A stretch of DNA of 64,000 nt. Origin: Cellulomonas sp. Root485 (GTDB taxonomy: Bacteria > Actinomycetota > Actinomycetes > Actinomycetales > Cellulomonadaceae). A program made the translations under genes and the position numbers. This document shows, in pieces, positions 707 through 11,723 of this stretch. Below the pieces are notes generated by a model. The model saw only the letters and a list, made by a program, of their open reading frames with translations, was not told the origin of the DNA and did not search any database. The stretch's first letter is position 1. Each line of letters starts with the position of its first letter. The stretch lies in assembly GCF_001426705.1 (NCBI RefSeq), contig NZ_LMFC01000002.1, forward strand, positions 953,905 through 1,017,904, given 5' to 3'.

Positions 707-2299
707 ATGGCACGCTCGAGCACGAGGTCGTCGATCGGTCGCACCCCTCCCGAGGTGACCGTCGACGGTGGCAGCATCGCGACGACGACGCTGCTGACTG
801 ACGGGTCGACCGACGCGGTCGCCGTCCCTGTGGCCCCGGCGCGCACGGGTGACGACGCGCTGCGCCCGCTCCAGGGCACGGCCGAGGCCGCGGCACGCTA
901 CGGCGTCGACCTGGCCGAGATCGGTGAACGAGCACGGCTGACGGGTGCGGCGGGCGAGATCTACGTCCTGCAGCTGCCCCGGCCGGTCGGCTCGTCCGTG
1001 ACGCTGCCGTGGTCGGGGCTCCCGCCGCGGCTGGTGCTCGTCGGGGTCGGCTCGGGCAGGCCCGCGGACCTGCGGCGTGCCGGTGCTGCGCTCGCCCGGT
1101 CCTCCCGCGGCCTGCGCCGGGTGGTCACCACCCTCGGCGCCGAGGCCCACCAGGACGACTCGGCGGCCGCCACGGCCGCGCGCGCCGTCGCTGAGGGCTA
1201 CCTGCTCGCCGCCTACGTGCCGCCGACCGCGTCGACGTCGGACGGCCCGTCCCGCGAGGCCGCCGAGCTCGTCCTCCTCGGCCGCGACGGCATGCGTCCC
1301 GCCGCGGCCGTCTCCGAGGGGCGCACGGCCGCCACCGCGACGTGGCTGGTCAGGGACCTGGCCACCACCCCGTCCAGCACCAAGACGCCTGCCTGGCTCG
1401 CGGACCAGGCCAAGCGACTGGCCACCAGGGCAGGGCTCGAGGTCACCGTCCGGAGCACCCGGGAGCTCACGGCCGAGGGTTTCGGGGGCATCCTCGCGGT
1501 CGGCGCCGGGTCCGCCTCGTCGCCGCGCCTCGTGACGGTCTCCTGGACGCCGCCGACCGCCGGGGGCCGGCACGTCGTCGTCGTGGGCAAGGGGATCACC
1601 TTCGACACGGGCGGCATCTCGATCAAGCCGCGCGAGGCCATGGTCCCCATGAAGACGGACATGACCGGTGCCGCGGTCGCGCTGGCCACGGTGCTCGGGG
1701 CAGCCGCAGCGGGGGTCGCGCACCGGGTCACGGCCGTGCTGCCGCTCGCGGAGAACCACTTCGGCGGTGCGTCCTACCGCCCGGGAGACGTGCTGACGAT
1801 GTGGGACGGCACCACCGTCGAGGTCGCCAACACCGACGCCGAGGGGCGCCTGGTCCTGGCCGACGCGCTGGCCTGGGCGGACGCCACCCTCGACCCCGAC
1901 GTGCTCATCGACGTCGCCACGCTCACGGGCGCCGCCTCGCTCGGGCTCGGCAAGCAGTACGCCGCCCTGTACTCCGGGGACGACGAGCTGGCCGACGCGC
2001 TCGCGGCCGCCGGCGACGCGTCCGGCGAGCTGGCGTGGCACATGCCGCTGGTCGAGGAGTACGAGGAGGCCGTGTCCTCGCAGGTCGCCGACCTGCGGCA
2101 CGTGCCCGTCGACAAGCACATCGGCGGTGGATCGATCACCGCGGCCCTGTTCCTGCGGCACTTCGTCGGCACGCGCACCTGGGCCCACCTCGACATCGCG
2201 GGTCCCGCACGCGCGACATCGGACAAGCACGAGGTCACCGAGGGTGCGACGGGCTTCGGCGCCCGCCTCCTGCTCCGCTACCTCGACGACCTGCGCTGA
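707..2299 (+). CDS. pepA: Leucyl aminopeptidase, M17 family
   Basis: This 530-residue protein is an M17 cytosolic zinc/manganese aminopeptidase that releases N-terminal residues from peptides and helps peptide turnover. The C-terminal catalytic half is diagnostic: GKGITFDTGGISIK near residue 300, a KTDMTGAA segment that supplies metal and active-site residues, and the family signature NTDAEGRL near residue 375. The N-terminal half is the variable domain that helps hexamer formation. Length is normal for the family (about 500). The start is the ATG 2 bases after the DUF3117 stop; the first 15 or so residues are not conserved in style, so a slightly later start is possible. A strong hairpin follows the stop. 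Confidence 0.93.
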   Translation: MARSSTRSSIGRTPPEVTVDGGSIATTTLLTDGSTDAVAVPVAPARTGDDALRPLQGTAEAAARYGVDLAEIGERARLTGAAGEIYVLQLPRPVGSSVTLPWSGLPPRLVLVGVGSGRPADLRRAGAALARSSRGLRRVVTTLGAEAHQDDSAAATAARAVAEGYLLAAYVPPTASTSDGPSREAAELVLLGRDGMRPAAAVSEGRTAATATWLVRDLATTPSSTKTPAWLADQAKRLATRAGLEVTVRSTRELTAEGFGGILAVGAGSASSPRLVTVSWTPPTAGGRHVVVVGKGITFDTGGISIKPREAMVPMKTDMTGAAVALATVLGAAAAGVAHRVTAVLPLAENHFGGASYRPGDVLTMWDGTTVEVANTDAEGRLVLADALAWADATLDPDVLIDVATLTGAASLGLGKQYAALYSGDDELADALAAAGDASGELAWHMPLVEEYEEAVSSQVADLRHVPVDKHIGGGSITAALFLRHFVGTRTWAHLDIAGPARATSDKHEVTEGATGFGARLLLRYLDDLR

Positions 2300-2345: not shown

Positions 2346-3227
2346 TCAGAACGGGCAGCTGGAGCTGGCGTCCGACAGCGCGGTCCCGGACGGGGTCGGG
2401 CACAGGAACTGCGTGTAGCGGGTGTCGTTGTCGACGAACCGCTTGAGCCACGCGATCGAGTTCTCGGCGATCGTCGTGTTGGAGGTGTTCGGCGCGAAGT
2501 GGCTCGCTCCGCGCAGCTCGAGATAGGTGCGCGGCGTCGACGACGGGAGCGTCTGGTAGAACGGCTTCGCGTGCGACGCGACCGGCGCGATCGTGTCGTT
2601 CTGGGCTCCGATGACCAGGGTCGGGGTGGTGATCTCCGGCCACGTCTTGTCGACGTTCCACGGGGTCAGCGGGATCGCCGCCTTGAGGGACGGGCGGTCC
2701 TTGGCGGCCTCGAGCGTCCCGCCGCCGCCCATCGAGTGGCCGACGACGGCGACGCGGGAGGCGTCGATCCGGCCGGCCACGGCGCTGCGCTGGGTCAGGT
2801 AGTCGGCGGCCGCGAGCAGCTGGTCGCCGCGGGACGCCGGCTGGTCGTAGACCGTGATGGTGTCGATGGTGAACACGACGAAGCCCTGGGACGCTATGCG
2901 CGGCCCGAGCCACGCCATGCTCGACTGCCGGGCGGTGTAGCCGGGGGCGACGACCACCGCGCCGAACGTGCCCTGGGACTGGTCCGTCGGGTAGTAGACG
3001 GTGCCGCCGCCGAAGCCGCTGACGCCGTAGCGCGAGACGGAGGTCTGCGAGACGGCGAACGAGCCGCGGGCGGCCTGGATGCTCGACCGCGTCGGGTCGG
3101 GGCCGCGCTGATAGGGGTTGTCGGCGGCGGCCGCAGGGTTCGCGATGCCGGCGATGCCGCCGACGACGAGGGTGGCGCTGAGCACGGCGGTCGTGGCGGT
3201 ACGGCGCCACTGGGTCAGAGATGTCAC
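2346..3227 (-). CDS. Secreted polyester hydrolase (cutinase / PET hydrolase family)
   Basis: This 293-residue alpha/beta hydrolase closely resembles the Thermobifida cutinases and IsPETase. Residues 1-35 form a Sec signal peptide ending in an Ala-rich cleavage site, followed by a family-typical mature start ([10 protein letters not shown]). The catalytic triad is Ser165 in GHSMG, Asp211 in NDTIAP and His243 in SHFAPN. Tyr97 (GYTARQSS) and Met166 form the oxyanion hole, and Trp190 lies in the substrate cleft. Cys276 and Cys291 match the conserved C-terminal disulfide. The IsPETase-specific Trp and Ser beside the triad are His164 and Phe244 here, as in Thermobifida enzymes. The second, IsPETase-only disulfide is absent. 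It starts at a GTG with AGAGGA 9 bases upstream. Likely role: extracellular hydrolysis of cutin-like or synthetic aromatic polyesters. Confidence 0.92.
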
Positions 3228-3305: not shown

Positions 3306-3323
3306 AAACCGACCGGTCGGTTT
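3306..3323. promoter_or_regulatory. Perfect 18-bp palindrome, probable TetR-type operator
   Basis: The sequence AAACCGACCGGTCGGTTT is its own reverse complement. It lies 79 bases upstream of the hydrolase start in an otherwise gene-free gap. ACCGACCGGTCGGT-like palindromes are typical TetR-family operators. No TetR gene is visible in the window. Confidence 0.7.
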
Positions 3324-3456
3324 TGCAACCTAGCACCGAGATGCCCATTTGTCATGGATTTCCTGTGACGTAGTCATGGCGTCCGGCAACCGGCGCCGCT
3401 GACCTGCACGGACGCCACGCACCCGGGGCGCCGTCGAGAAGGGCGGCAGGACGTGC

Positions 3457-4125
3457 CTAGCGCTTGACCGCCACCAGGAGGCCGTCGCCGACGGGCAGGA
3501 GGGACGGGAGCAGGCGGTCGTCGGCGCGCACGATGCGGCCGACCTCGCGGATGGTCGTCGTCGTCTCGTCGCGACGTGCGGGGTCCGCGACGCGGTCGTG
3601 CCACAGGGCGTTGTCGACCACGAGCACCCCGCCGGGGCGCAGCAGGCGCACAGCCTGCTCGACGTAGCCGCGGTAGCTGTCCTTGTCGGCGTCGATGAAC
3701 ACCAGGTCGTAGCCGCCGTCGGTGAGCCGTGGCACCACGTCGAGCGCGCGGCCCGAGATCGTGCGCGTGCGGGTGGGCTTGACGCCCTCCTCGGCGAACG
3801 CCTCCTTGGCGGCACGCTGGTGCTCGACCTCGAGGTCGATCGTGGTCAGGACGCCGTCCGCCGGCATCCCGCGCAGCAGGTAGAGGGAGCCGACGCCGGT
3901 CCCGGTGCCGATCTCGACGACCGCACGGGCCGCCGCGGCCGCGGCGAGCACGCTCAGCGCGGCGCCCGCGCCCGGCAGCACCGGGGTGCACCCCAGCTGT
4001 GCAGCACGCTCGCGGGCGCGCAGCAGGATGTCGTCCTCCGGCAGGAACTCCTCGCAGTAGACCCAGCTCTGGGCCTTGTCGGTGGAGATGGTGGCCTCCC
4101 GGGGCGCGACGACGTGGTGGTGCAA
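3457..4125 (-). CDS. Class I SAM-dependent O-methyltransferase
   Basis: This 222-residue Rossmann-fold protein carries the SAM-binding glycine motif [15 protein letters not shown], an acidic motif (TTIDLEVEH) and the [12 protein letters not shown] segment of the catechol/caffeoyl-CoA O-methyltransferase-like family. It is the counterpart of M. tuberculosis Rv1220c, which likewise diverges from sigE. Substrate is unknown. The only reasonable start is TTG at 4125; a TANNNT-like hexamer (TACGCT on the minus strand, 4138-4143) would give a leader of only about 5 bases. The conserved pairing with sigE suggests a link to envelope stress, but nothing in the protein itself shows this. Confidence 0.85.
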
Positions 4126-9575: not shown

Positions 9576-10607
9576 ATGACGGCTGACCGCACCTCCGGGA
9601 AGGACGCCACGGGTCCTGCCGCGGGAGCGGGAGCGGCGCACGCACGTGCGGTCGCGACGGCCCCGGACCCGGCCGAGCCGGCGCCCAAGCCCTCGCTCGT
9701 GGGGCGGGCGAAGGCGCTGTTCGCGTGGTGGCAGCACACCCGGCCGGCGCGGGCGAACGCGCGGTTCGGTGCCCGCGGTGGAGGCGTGCTCACCGGCGGC
9801 ATCGCGTACGCGGCGCTGTTCTCGGTGTTCGCCGCGCTGACCATCGGCTACACGATCTTCATGGCTGTCCTGGGCAGCAACGACGAGCTGCGCCAGAAGG
9901 TGCTGGACGCGGTGAACGAGTCCCTGCCCGGCCTCATCAAGACCGGTGACGGCGCCGGCATGATCGATCCCGACTCCCTCGTGCTCAGCGGCAGCCTCAC
10001 CGTGACCGGGATCGTCGCGGTCGTCGTGCTCCTGCTCAGCGCGATCGCAGCGATGGCGGCCCTGCGCCTCGCGGTCCGGGCGATGTTCGCCCCGGAGACC
10101 GGCGCGGGAGCCGGTGGCAACGCGGTGCTCGGCAAGGCGCGGGAGCTGGGCGGGTTCGTCGGCATGGCCTTCGCGGTGCTGCTGTCCGCGGTGCTCACGA
10201 CCGGGGTGGCCAGCGCGGCGTCGTGGGTCCTCGACTCGCTCGGCTGGGGTGGCTCGACCACGGTCGTGCTGCGGGTGGTCGGCATCCTCGTCGTGTTCGT
10301 CGTCGACGCGGCGATCTTCCTGCTCGTCGTCACCGTGCTGGCGGGCGAGCACGCGCCGTGGAAGGACCTGCGCCGAGGTGCGGTCATCGCCGCCGTCGGC
10401 ATCGGGGTCGTCCGCATCCTCGGCACGGAGGTGGTGGCCGGCAGCGTGAACAAGAACCCGCTCTTCACGTCGGTCGCCGTCATCGTCACCCTGCTCGTGT
10501 GGGTCAACCTCATCGCCCGCATCGTCCTGCTCGCGGCGGCGTGGACAGCAGACCCCCCGTTCGTGGAGCCGGAACCGAACCCGGAGGAACCGGCGACCGC
10601 CACCTGA
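9576..10607 (+). CDS. YihY/BrkB-type integral membrane protein (copy 1)
   Basis: This 343-residue protein has about six transmembrane helices and the family start GGGVLTGGIAYAALFSVFAALTIGYTIF. It belongs to the YihY/virulence factor BrkB family, often mis-described as ribonuclease BN. Molecular function is unknown; a transport or envelope role is the usual guess. A charged, Ala-rich N-terminal segment of about 60 residues lies in the cytoplasm. It is followed by a close paralogue 127 bases downstream with near-identical helix order. Both copies carry their own TAGGGT element directly before the ATG. Confidence 0.87.
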   Translation: MTADRTSGKDATGPAAGAGAAHARAVATAPDPAEPAPKPSLVGRAKALFAWWQHTRPARANARFGARGGGVLTGGIAYAALFSVFAALTIGYTIFMAVLGSNDELRQKVLDAVNESLPGLIKTGDGAGMIDPDSLVLSGSLTVTGIVAVVVLLLSAIAAMAALRLAVRAMFAPETGAGAGGNAVLGKARELGGFVGMAFAVLLSAVLTTGVASAASWVLDSLGWGGSTTVVLRVVGILVVFVVDAAIFLLVVTVLAGEHAPWKDLRRGAVIAAVGIGVVRILGTEVVAGSVNKNPLFTSVAVIVTLLVWVNLIARIVLLAAAWTADPPFVEPEPNPEEPATAT

Positions 10608-10733: not shown

Positions 10734-11723
10734 ATGTCAGCCGAGGAGACAGGTCCCGCGATCGCGACCGGGCGGGCGCAGGTGCGTGCCGACGACGCGC
10801 GCGCCCGGCCCGCAGACCGTCCGTCGCTCGTCGCCCGGGGCAAGGCCCTGTTCCTGTGGTGGAAGCACACCCGACCCGGCCGGGCGAGCGCGCGGTTCCG
10901 GGCCCGCAGCGGGGGAGTCCTGTCCGGCGGGATCGCCTACGCGGCGCTGTTCTCGGTGTTCGCCGCCCTGACCATCAGCTACACGGTCTTCATCGCGATC
11001 CTCGGCGACAACGACGAGCTGCGCGAGAGGGTCCTCGTCGCCGTCGACACGACCTACCCACACCTCCTGGACACCGGTGACGGCCAGGGCCTGCTCGACC
11101 CGGAGTCCCTCGAGCTGTCCAGCAGCCTCACGCTCGCCGGCGTCGTGGCCGTCGTCGTGCTGCTGCTCAGCGCGGTCGCAGCCATGACGGCCCTGCGCAG
11201 GGCGGTGCGCGCGATGTTCGCGGCTGAGCTCGGCGGCAATCCGATGCTCGGCAAGGCGCGCGACCTCGGCGGGTTCGTCGGGCTGGTGTTCGCGGTGCTG
11301 CTCTCGGCCGTGCTGACCACGGGCGTCGGCACGGTGGCGTCGTGGCTCCTGGGCACCCTCGGGTGGGACGGTCTGACGACGGCCGTGCTGCGGGCGCTCG
11401 GCATCCTGGTCGCCTTCGTGGTCGACGCCGCGATCTTCCTGCTGGTGGTCAAGGTGCTGGCCGACGAGCACCCGCCGCGGCGTGACCTGCTCGGGGGTGC
11501 CGTGCTCGCGGCGTCCGGCCTGGCCGTCGTGCGGATCCTCGGCACGACGGTCGTCGCGGGCAGCGTGAGCAAGAACCCGCTGTTCACGTCCGTCACCGTG
11601 CTCGTCACGCTGCTGGTGTGGGTCAACCTGGTCGCCCGGATCGTGCTGCTCGCGGCGGCGTGGACCGCGGACCCGCCGTACGTCGACCCCGTGAGCCGGC
11701 GGAAGGACCCTCAGCCTGCCTGA
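10734..11723 (+). CDS. YihY/BrkB-type integral membrane protein (copy 2)
   Basis: This 329-residue paralogue of the preceding gene shares most of its membrane core. Examples are GGIAYAALFSVFAALTI, NPLFTSV and LLVWVNLVARIVLLAAAWTADPP, so the pair arose by tandem duplication. The N-terminal tail and the loop after the second helix differ most, including the loss of a short Gly-rich insertion. As with copy 1, the family has no firmly known activity. It has its own -10 element. It is convergent with the phosphotransferase gene; the 31-base gap holds only a weak, imperfect hairpin. Confidence 0.87.
   Translation: MSAEETGPAIATGRAQVRADDARARPADRPSLVARGKALFLWWKHTRPGRASARFRARSGGVLSGGIAYAALFSVFAALTISYTVFIAILGDNDELRERVLVAVDTTYPHLLDTGDGQGLLDPESLELSSSLTLAGVVAVVVLLLSAVAAMTALRRAVRAMFAAELGGNPMLGKARDLGGFVGLVFAVLLSAVLTTGVGTVASWLLGTLGWDGLTTAVLRALGILVAFVVDAAIFLLVVKVLADEHPPRRDLLGGAVLAASGLAVVRILGTTVVAGSVSKNPLFTSVTVLVTLLVWVNLVARIVLLAAAWTADPPYVDPVSRRKDPQPA

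Follow-up and report, generated by a model that had tools for sequence, protein, structure and literature searches.

The polyesterase locus

In the 64-kb window (the whole stretch of DNA analysed) we identified a gene for a secreted polyesterase (Table 1). A first-pass annotation had given exactly the same open reading frame without stating its strand, which is minus. It had also called the product a secreted enzyme of the cutinase/PETase family, and this is borne out, the family by the Pfam model PF12740 (PETase) and the signal peptide by eye. PF12740 matches residues 34-290 with 404.4 bits (E 2.7e-121; curated cut-off 28). The NCBIfam equivalog for BHET hydrolase (NF051441) gives 496.6 bits and so does not reach its cut-off of 520 bits. 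The gene is present as a single copy in the source genome (7 contigs, 4.65 Mb), the sole other whole-genome match being partial (E 4e-4). The polyesterase is a further member of a known enzyme family, with an intact triad.

The order pepA-PETase-O-methyltransferase is common to the source genome and seven others, with about 1.3 kb extra before the O-methyltransferase gene in G024 and G043. The gene names pepA, htrA and trpS used for the window are our presumption. Seven other regions examined lack this order around PETase, and in four of four PETase-less genomes looked at pepA and the O-methyltransferase gene are direct neighbours. Elsewhere in the window, two adjacent genes for BrkB/YihY-family membrane proteins (9576-10607 and 10734-11723, plus strand) have the look of a tandem duplication.

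Table 1. Features of the polyesterase locus (window coordinates) and operator-like sites of the acyl-catabolic cluster (contig C1 of the source genome).
Feature	Position	Strand	Basis
Polyesterase gene (secreted PETase/cutinase family, 293 aa, GTG start)	2346..3227, stop included	minus	ORF reading, PF12740, catalytic and class residues
Signal peptide, residues 1-35 (putative boundary)	3123..3227	minus	mature N-termini of PDB homologues (NPYxRGP); alignments begin at residue 34
Hydrolase domain of the mature protein (alpha/beta fold), with triad Ser165/Asp211/His243 and the Cys276/Cys291 pair near the C-terminus	2349..3122	minus	alignments
18-bp palindrome AAACCGACCGGTCGGTTT with perfect symmetry, putative operator for TetR control of the polyesterase gene	3306..3323		pattern and matrix scans
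Promoter-like ATGACA-17 bp-TAGGTT, immediately 5' of the operator	3327..3355	minus	by eye; weak
Leucyl-aminopeptidase-type gene (pepA by reading), convergent neighbour, outside the system	707..2299	plus	synteny
O-methyltransferase gene (by reading), upstream neighbour of the polyesterase gene, outside the system	3457..4125	minus	synteny
Operator-like site, TetR operon (SDR-TetR)	C1:465354		first matrix 29.3
Operator-like site before LivG (Liv-type ABC importer)	C1:462227		first matrix 26.6
Operator-like site, start of APH-ACAD-ligase	C1:453554		first matrix 25.0
Operator-like site between esterase and ADH genes	C1:447458		first matrix 21.4

Relatives of the enzyme

The closest named relatives all belong to Cellulomonas (C. 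humilata BE332, 95%; C. terrae, 94%; C. xylanilytica, 93%), and a full-length homologue is found in 19 of 81 Cellulomonas genomes; thus, close copies are already public. Judged by titles and abstract openings, none of the literature matches listed concerns a Cellulomonas enzyme of the PF12740 family. Over the mature protein, identity is 70.2% to 8eu0, 70.0% to PET40, 68.9% to 1jfr, 62.1% to TfCut, 58.5% to LCC and 49.8% to IsPETase.

A tree was built from 53 rows: the query, four references and a hand-picked 48 of the 91 distinct homologues. The query falls within a Cellulomonas clade of 16 rows (support 95/89), and a 49-row actinobacterial group (100/100) includes it along with Cellulomonas, Promicromonospora, Nocardioides, Streptomyces and others, all of which we take to be mesophilic. 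TfCut, 8eu0, LCC and IsPETase fall outside this group, with a weakly supported branching order among themselves and long branches flagged by the tree program. The phylogeny against TfCut, LCC and IsPETase proposed in the first-pass annotation therefore gave no placement outside the PETase/cutinase clade. Grouping of the query with the Thermobifida cutinase (TfCut) was not found in the 53-row tree, in which a 100/100 branch separates the two.

Two Streptomyces enzymes that lie outside the row set of the tree are described as PET hydrolases: SM14est (PMC10213408) and, with activity on BHET, the enzyme of W2061 (PMC11485624). Sub1 of S. scabies was dropped as a characterised relative; at about 25 kDa (PMC7104285), it is probably a CE5 cutinase, of another family.

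Two further Cellulomonas PETases (L099 and L100, from G033 and G068) are 58-60% identical to the query and cluster with Micromonosporaceae rows (97/97, long stem), which suggests that they were acquired separately; they carry GYTAGR and lack the operator upstream. In G027, a single frame (L098:1498-2787, minus strand) fuses the start of a CE5-type cutinase (PF01083 positions 2-100 of 173, to the GYSQG elbow by eye) to a near-complete PETase domain (PF12740, position 14 onward). This frame could reflect a genuine chimera, a fusion by deletion or a mistake in the assembly.

Active-site residues and class

Residues were read from an alignment of the query with IsPETase, LCC, TfCut, 8eu0 and the 91 distinct homologues. 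Relatives were retrieved with the query's own peptides (80 of 298 kept; the A1 set comprised 32 sequences), and therefore residue counts are biased toward close relatives. The alignment confirms the triad Ser165/Asp211/His243, the oxyanion residue Tyr97 and Trp190, as well as His164 and Phe244 at the positions of IsPETase Trp159 and Ser238, all of which had been read from the protein in the first-pass annotation. Met166 is aligned beside Ser165, His219 stands at IsPETase Ser214, Phe223 at Ile218, and Ala208/Ala245 at the second disulfide. The sequence has Cys276 and Cys291 in place for a C-terminal disulfide. Counted manually, the stretch between the catalytic His and the following Trp has 18 residues in the query and in TfCut and 21 in IsPETase; therefore the extended loop is absent from the query. 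Asn191 is found in the query and in 91 of 91 homologues, with His in LCC and TfCut, a count to be read with search peptides that favoured Asn191.

According to Joo et al. (PMC5785972), type I enzymes have His and Phe/Tyr at IsPETase Trp159 and Ser238, lack the second disulfide and the extended loop, and retain the C-terminal disulfide. Type II enzymes have the Cys203-Cys239 disulfide and the extended loop, to which type IIb adds Trp159 and Ser238 (PMC5785972). The query has the type I residues at both positions, Ala at both positions of the second disulfide, a His-Trp stretch three residues under that of IsPETase, and the C-terminal Cys pair. Lacking in the alignment are the type II (IsPETase-like) features tested: Cys203-Cys239, the extended loop, Trp159 and Ser238. 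At the class positions tested, the enzyme thus reads as type I.

The enzyme had been described as a hybrid, and it could on that view be a hybrid or transitional PETase that combines an IsPETase-like substrate loop with improved PET activity. GYTARQSS is indeed letter for letter that of IsPETase, and the C-terminal loop is short. However, GYTARQSS is a Cellulomonas trait, present in 15 of 92 rows (query counted), all 15 of them Cellulomonas, and it includes IsPETase position 90, which is variable among the 91 homologues (Y 37, T 17, R 14, S 12, D 4, G 3 and others). The C-terminal loop is shorter than that of TfCut by 3 columns, as had been noted, but its likeness is not specific to IsPETase, since LSD before the last Cys is also found in LCC. 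Given the type I class residues, 49.8% identity to IsPETase and a tree position beside other Cellulomonas, we dropped the IsPETase-like hybrid, to which we give almost no credence. The label 'thermophilic type-I' is correct as to type and misleading as to 'thermophilic', since the tree groups the query with actinobacteria that are presumably mesophilic. The ends of the mature protein do resemble those of Thermobifida cutinases, but this is no tie to Thermobifida, as such ends occur family-wide and 8eu0, PET40 and 1jfr are closer.

A palindrome upstream of the polyesterase gene

Upstream of the polyesterase gene lies a perfect palindrome, AAACCGACCGGTCGGTTT, 3' of the promoter-like ATGACA-17-TAGGTT seen by eye; so placed, it would overlap the start of transcription. 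Most close relatives also have ATGACA and a TAxxxT hexamer, and a palindrome is found 78-103 bp upstream of the PETase start in the eight closest genomes. AAACCGACCGGTCGGTTT is the sole match in the 64-kb window at up to 3 mismatches, and its 16-bp core has a single exact copy in the source genome. Seven of 81 Cellulomonas genomes contain the exact 16-mer AACCGACCGGTCGGTT, one copy each and every one upstream of PETase. A sample of 396 genomes from the order yielded it in 3, the source genome among them. Matches to the 16-mer in G167 and G245 lie within unrelated ORFs and were put down to chance.

Within 220 bp upstream, the 14-mer ACCGACCGGTCGGT is present with at most one mismatch at 10 of 19 PETase genes versus 3 of 5700 shuffled regions. 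With up to three mismatches the counts are 13 of 19 versus 330 of 5700, and the sites of G002, G017 and G035 therefore stand on weaker ground. The pattern ACCGACNNGTCGGT was discarded as too loose (77 of 81 genomes, 285 places versus 96 for the reversed control in the summed table). A post hoc site pattern has two places in the source genome, the PETase and SDR-TetR promoters, and only the scarcity of others is informative.

If the palindrome were a nucleoid element, or one of another kind with no part in regulating the polyesterase gene, it would be no surprise that a consensus promoter scan found no promoter. However, the palindrome stays upstream of the gene though flanks and genomic place differ: it persists in a second Cellulomonas clade with PETase elsewhere in the genome (three of its five genomes were examined: G015, G017 and G002). 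The 16-mer, moreover, has one copy per genome in its seven genomes. We consider a nucleoid element very improbable, and read the palindrome as the putative operator of a TetR-type regulator. The literature matches listed include no report of a PETase or cutinase under TetR control.

A candidate regulator and its sites

A TetR gene was found somewhere in 13 of 95 regions scanned, but neither the window nor any region from the seven closest genomes contains one. In G033 (L172), a TetR gene adjoins PETase on the downstream side. Around other copies and near forms of the 14-mer, nine regions contained no TetR gene.

The source genome has 40 TetR_N matches over the cut-off and one below it. Scanning all 41 TetR loci for the PETase site returned L122 and L138 (4 mismatches in 18). 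The L122 TetR (G000:C1:463997-464617; PF00440 and PF17932, TetR_C_24) is encoded in an SDR-TetR-qor-SDR arrangement on another contig than PETase and has orthologues in 20 of 81 Cellulomonas genomes. Of these 20, 19 have a ACCGnnCnGTCGGT-type palindrome 15-124 bp ahead of the SDR gene, located by its similarity to the 14-mer at PETase; in the twentieth, G041, the SDR gene is without its first part. A reference-free search of the 150 bp before SDR returned the same site as the best palindrome in 13 of 19 genomes and tied in G002; it was not the best in the other five (G072, G077, G078, G079 and G019).

The first matrix was built from the 19 SDR-TetR operon sites (6 distinct). Scores with it are partly circular, because L122 was picked, and its sites located, by likeness to the PETase site; with that in mind, the PETase site scores 28.8 (training range 24.1-29.7) and the next in the 64-kb window 10.8. 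A second matrix, trained on the palindromes of the reference-free search with the wrong ones left in, also puts the PETase site at the top of the window, by a small margin (13.8, next 12.2), and ranks the same cluster sites first. Thus, the operator type of the SDR-TetR operon itself is found at the PETase promoter by both matrix scans, the first being partly circular. G025 likewise has the sites at SDR, Liv and APH, and the part of G015 retrieved has those at SDR and Liv. Across about 221 kb of the source genome (overlaps counted, mostly TetR loci), one other site scores at least 18, at the L138 promoter (23.3).

The best solved matches of the L122 TetR are 3dcf and SCO3833, both uncharacterised by name; KstR2 (E 6e-15) and a FadR entry (1e-11) are among its more distant relatives. 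KstR2 and FadR-type regulators are acyl-CoA sensors.

TetR genes of a different family are divergently adjacent to PETase in Nocardioides, a MAG and three Promicromonospora (L009:79-639, L011:4232-4867, L014:4224-4865, L032:4175-4864 and L072:4238-4864), and are 44-96% identical to one another. TTGACCA-N2-TGGTCAA-like palindromes are present at L009 and L011, with less symmetric forms in Promicromonospora. TetR control may have arisen more than once in the PETase family.

Co-occurrence of site and regulator

The site is present at 13 of 19 Cellulomonas PETase genes (3 degenerate), and all 13 are in genomes with the L122 TetR; of the six PETase genes without it, five are in TetR-negative genomes. 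Upstream scores are 13.0-28.8 for the 14 PETase genes in TetR-positive genomes, except for G033 (2.8), and -2.4 to 2.7 for the five in TetR-negative genomes. The degenerate sites of G002, G017 and G035 score 18.0, and the site of G015 scores 13.0. Fisher's test of site versus TetR gives 5e-4, uncorrected for kinship, with sites essentially in two clades; the counts are not independent, because the genomes are related. G033 has the TetR and a divergent (about 60%) PETase, yet no site. Among 73 further loci, the highest score is 20.3, for C. cellasea (L038, which branches separately), and the remaining 72 stay at or below 12.7.

Full-length PETase is missing from 62 genomes, and 6 of them nevertheless encode the TetR. 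Among the six, G041 has a TetR of 92-95% identity, truncated SDR and qor genes, and no PETase in the genome, with pepA adjoining the O-methyltransferase gene. The 14 kb retrieved from G041 contain parts of ADH and the third SDR, but no second SDR, ligase, acyl-CoA dehydrogenase, APH or Liv genes. This single joint absence of PETase and most of the cluster is suggestive of a tie, short of proof.

The enzyme could instead be an ordinary secreted cutinase or lipase whose palindrome is read by a different TetR, such as L138, with no tie to the acyl cluster and with half-sites that are convergent. The L138 TetR (G000:C6, near 51438) has a partly operator-like palindrome at its own promoter, AAACCGAACGTTCGTTCT, which accounts for the score of 23.3 noted above. 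An unrelated system, PaaR of Burkholderia cenocepacia, has the 14-mer ACCGACCGGTCGGT as its operator (PMC2770484); TetR operators of such shape thus recur. The orthologue search among other genomes covered L122 alone. Against a different TetR, presence of the L122 TetR equals presence of the site in 18 of 19 PETase genomes, three further sites lie at promoters of the same cluster, and the PETase site scores inside the L122-TetR range, albeit with a partly circular matrix. We therefore regard a different regulator as unlikely. The identical PaaR operator had also prompted a search for a phenylacetate regulon, which was dropped: the source genome has no match to PF05138 (PaaA/PaaC), a model that matched in 4 of 14 control genomes.

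The acyl-catabolic cluster and proposed role of the enzyme

By Pfam and NCBIfam models, the cluster around the L122 TetR encodes SDRs, the TetR, a branched-chain-type ABC importer with Peripla_BP_6, acyl-CoA dehydrogenases, an APH-like kinase and a Zn alcohol dehydrogenase, along with a thiolase that scores over its cut-off. The quinone oxidoreductase matches the PIG3 model below cut-off, and the best model for the AMP-binding acyl-CoA ligase is long-chain-fatty-acid--CoA ligase (428.5 bits, cut-off 476). A beta-lactamase-fold esterase has a weak likeness to LipL (177.5 bits, cut-off 650). None of these models fixes the substrate of the cluster. The combination of alcohol dehydrogenase, ligase and beta-oxidation would fit hydroxy fatty acids from cutin or suberin, and the identity of the 14-mer to the PaaR operator, together with the KstR2/FadR relatives, may point to acyl-CoA-type ligands.

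We propose, with a probability of about 0.7, that the secreted type I polyesterase belongs to the regulon of one TetR regulator, L122, together with the acyl-catabolic cluster, and that its substrate is a natural polyester. Cleavage of ester bonds in aliphatic polyesters is established for the PETase/cutinase family, and a natural aliphatic polyester is probably the substrate here. By analogy with the family, Ser165, activated by His243/Asp211 and with Tyr97/Met166 as oxyanion hole, would cleave aliphatic polyester bonds; BHET and amorphous PET would probably also be cleaved, slowly. The L122 TetR is presumed to repress, via ACCGnnCnGTCGGT-type palindromes, the promoters of the polyesterase gene, SDR-TetR-qor-SDR, LivGFHMK, APH-acyl-CoA dehydrogenase-acyl-CoA ligase and the esterase/alcohol dehydrogenase genes. 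Most likely, acyl-CoA formed from imported hydrolysis products (cutin/suberin hydroxy acids or similar) would release the regulator, so that depolymerisation, uptake and beta-oxidation would be induced together. Going further, a polyester-assimilation regulon dedicated to this purpose in Cellulomonas, in which a TetR acyl-CoA sensor couples PETase to LivGFHMK, the esterase, dehydrogenases, ligase and beta-oxidation, is a tentative reading to which we give slightly less than an even chance.

The unexpected part is the putative regulatory link, not the enzyme. To our knowledge, PETase-type cutinases have been studied mostly as catalysts, and little is known of their natural substrates and inducers in actinobacteria. 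If correct, the dedicated regulon would provide a sequence-derived regulatory explanation of the purpose and inducer of such actinobacterial enzymes. Sharing an operator with the cluster for uptake and beta-oxidation would point to a natural aliphatic polyester, not plastic. The regulon would aid in predicting the inducer of such enzymes and in finding partner enzymes for oligomers.

Comparison with known systems

PET40 (8a2c), 1jfr (presumably a Streptomyces lipase) and 8eu0 (a 'polyethylene terephthalate hydrolase' that we take to be an ancestral reconstruction) are of the same fold family as the query and its closest matches among the enzymes compared; they differ in coming from other genera or in being engineered. 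We know of no tie between these three and a AAACCGACCGGTCGGTTT-type operator. TfCut/BTA-hydrolase 1 (5zoa) and LCC (4eb0) share the type I class residues and the kind of termini with the query, whereas they are less similar in sequence, lie outside the 49-row clade and have His for the query's Asn191 after the PW motif; the C-terminal loop of TfCut is also longer. IsPETase (9m8h) has the triad, Trp190 and the GYTARQSS loop in common with the query, at the lowest identity of the set, and its Trp159, Ser238, Cys203-Cys239 disulfide and extended loop are missing from the query.

On the regulatory side, KstR2 and FadR are distant solved relatives of the L122 TetR, and their operators and targets differ from its putative ones. 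PaaR of B. cenocepacia is a TetR-type repressor with the operator ACCGACCGGTCGGT in core promoters of the phenylacetate catabolic pathway (PMC2770484). The likeness lies in a TetR operator at catabolic promoters, and the difference in the targets, which here would be a polyesterase and a fatty-acyl-type cluster.
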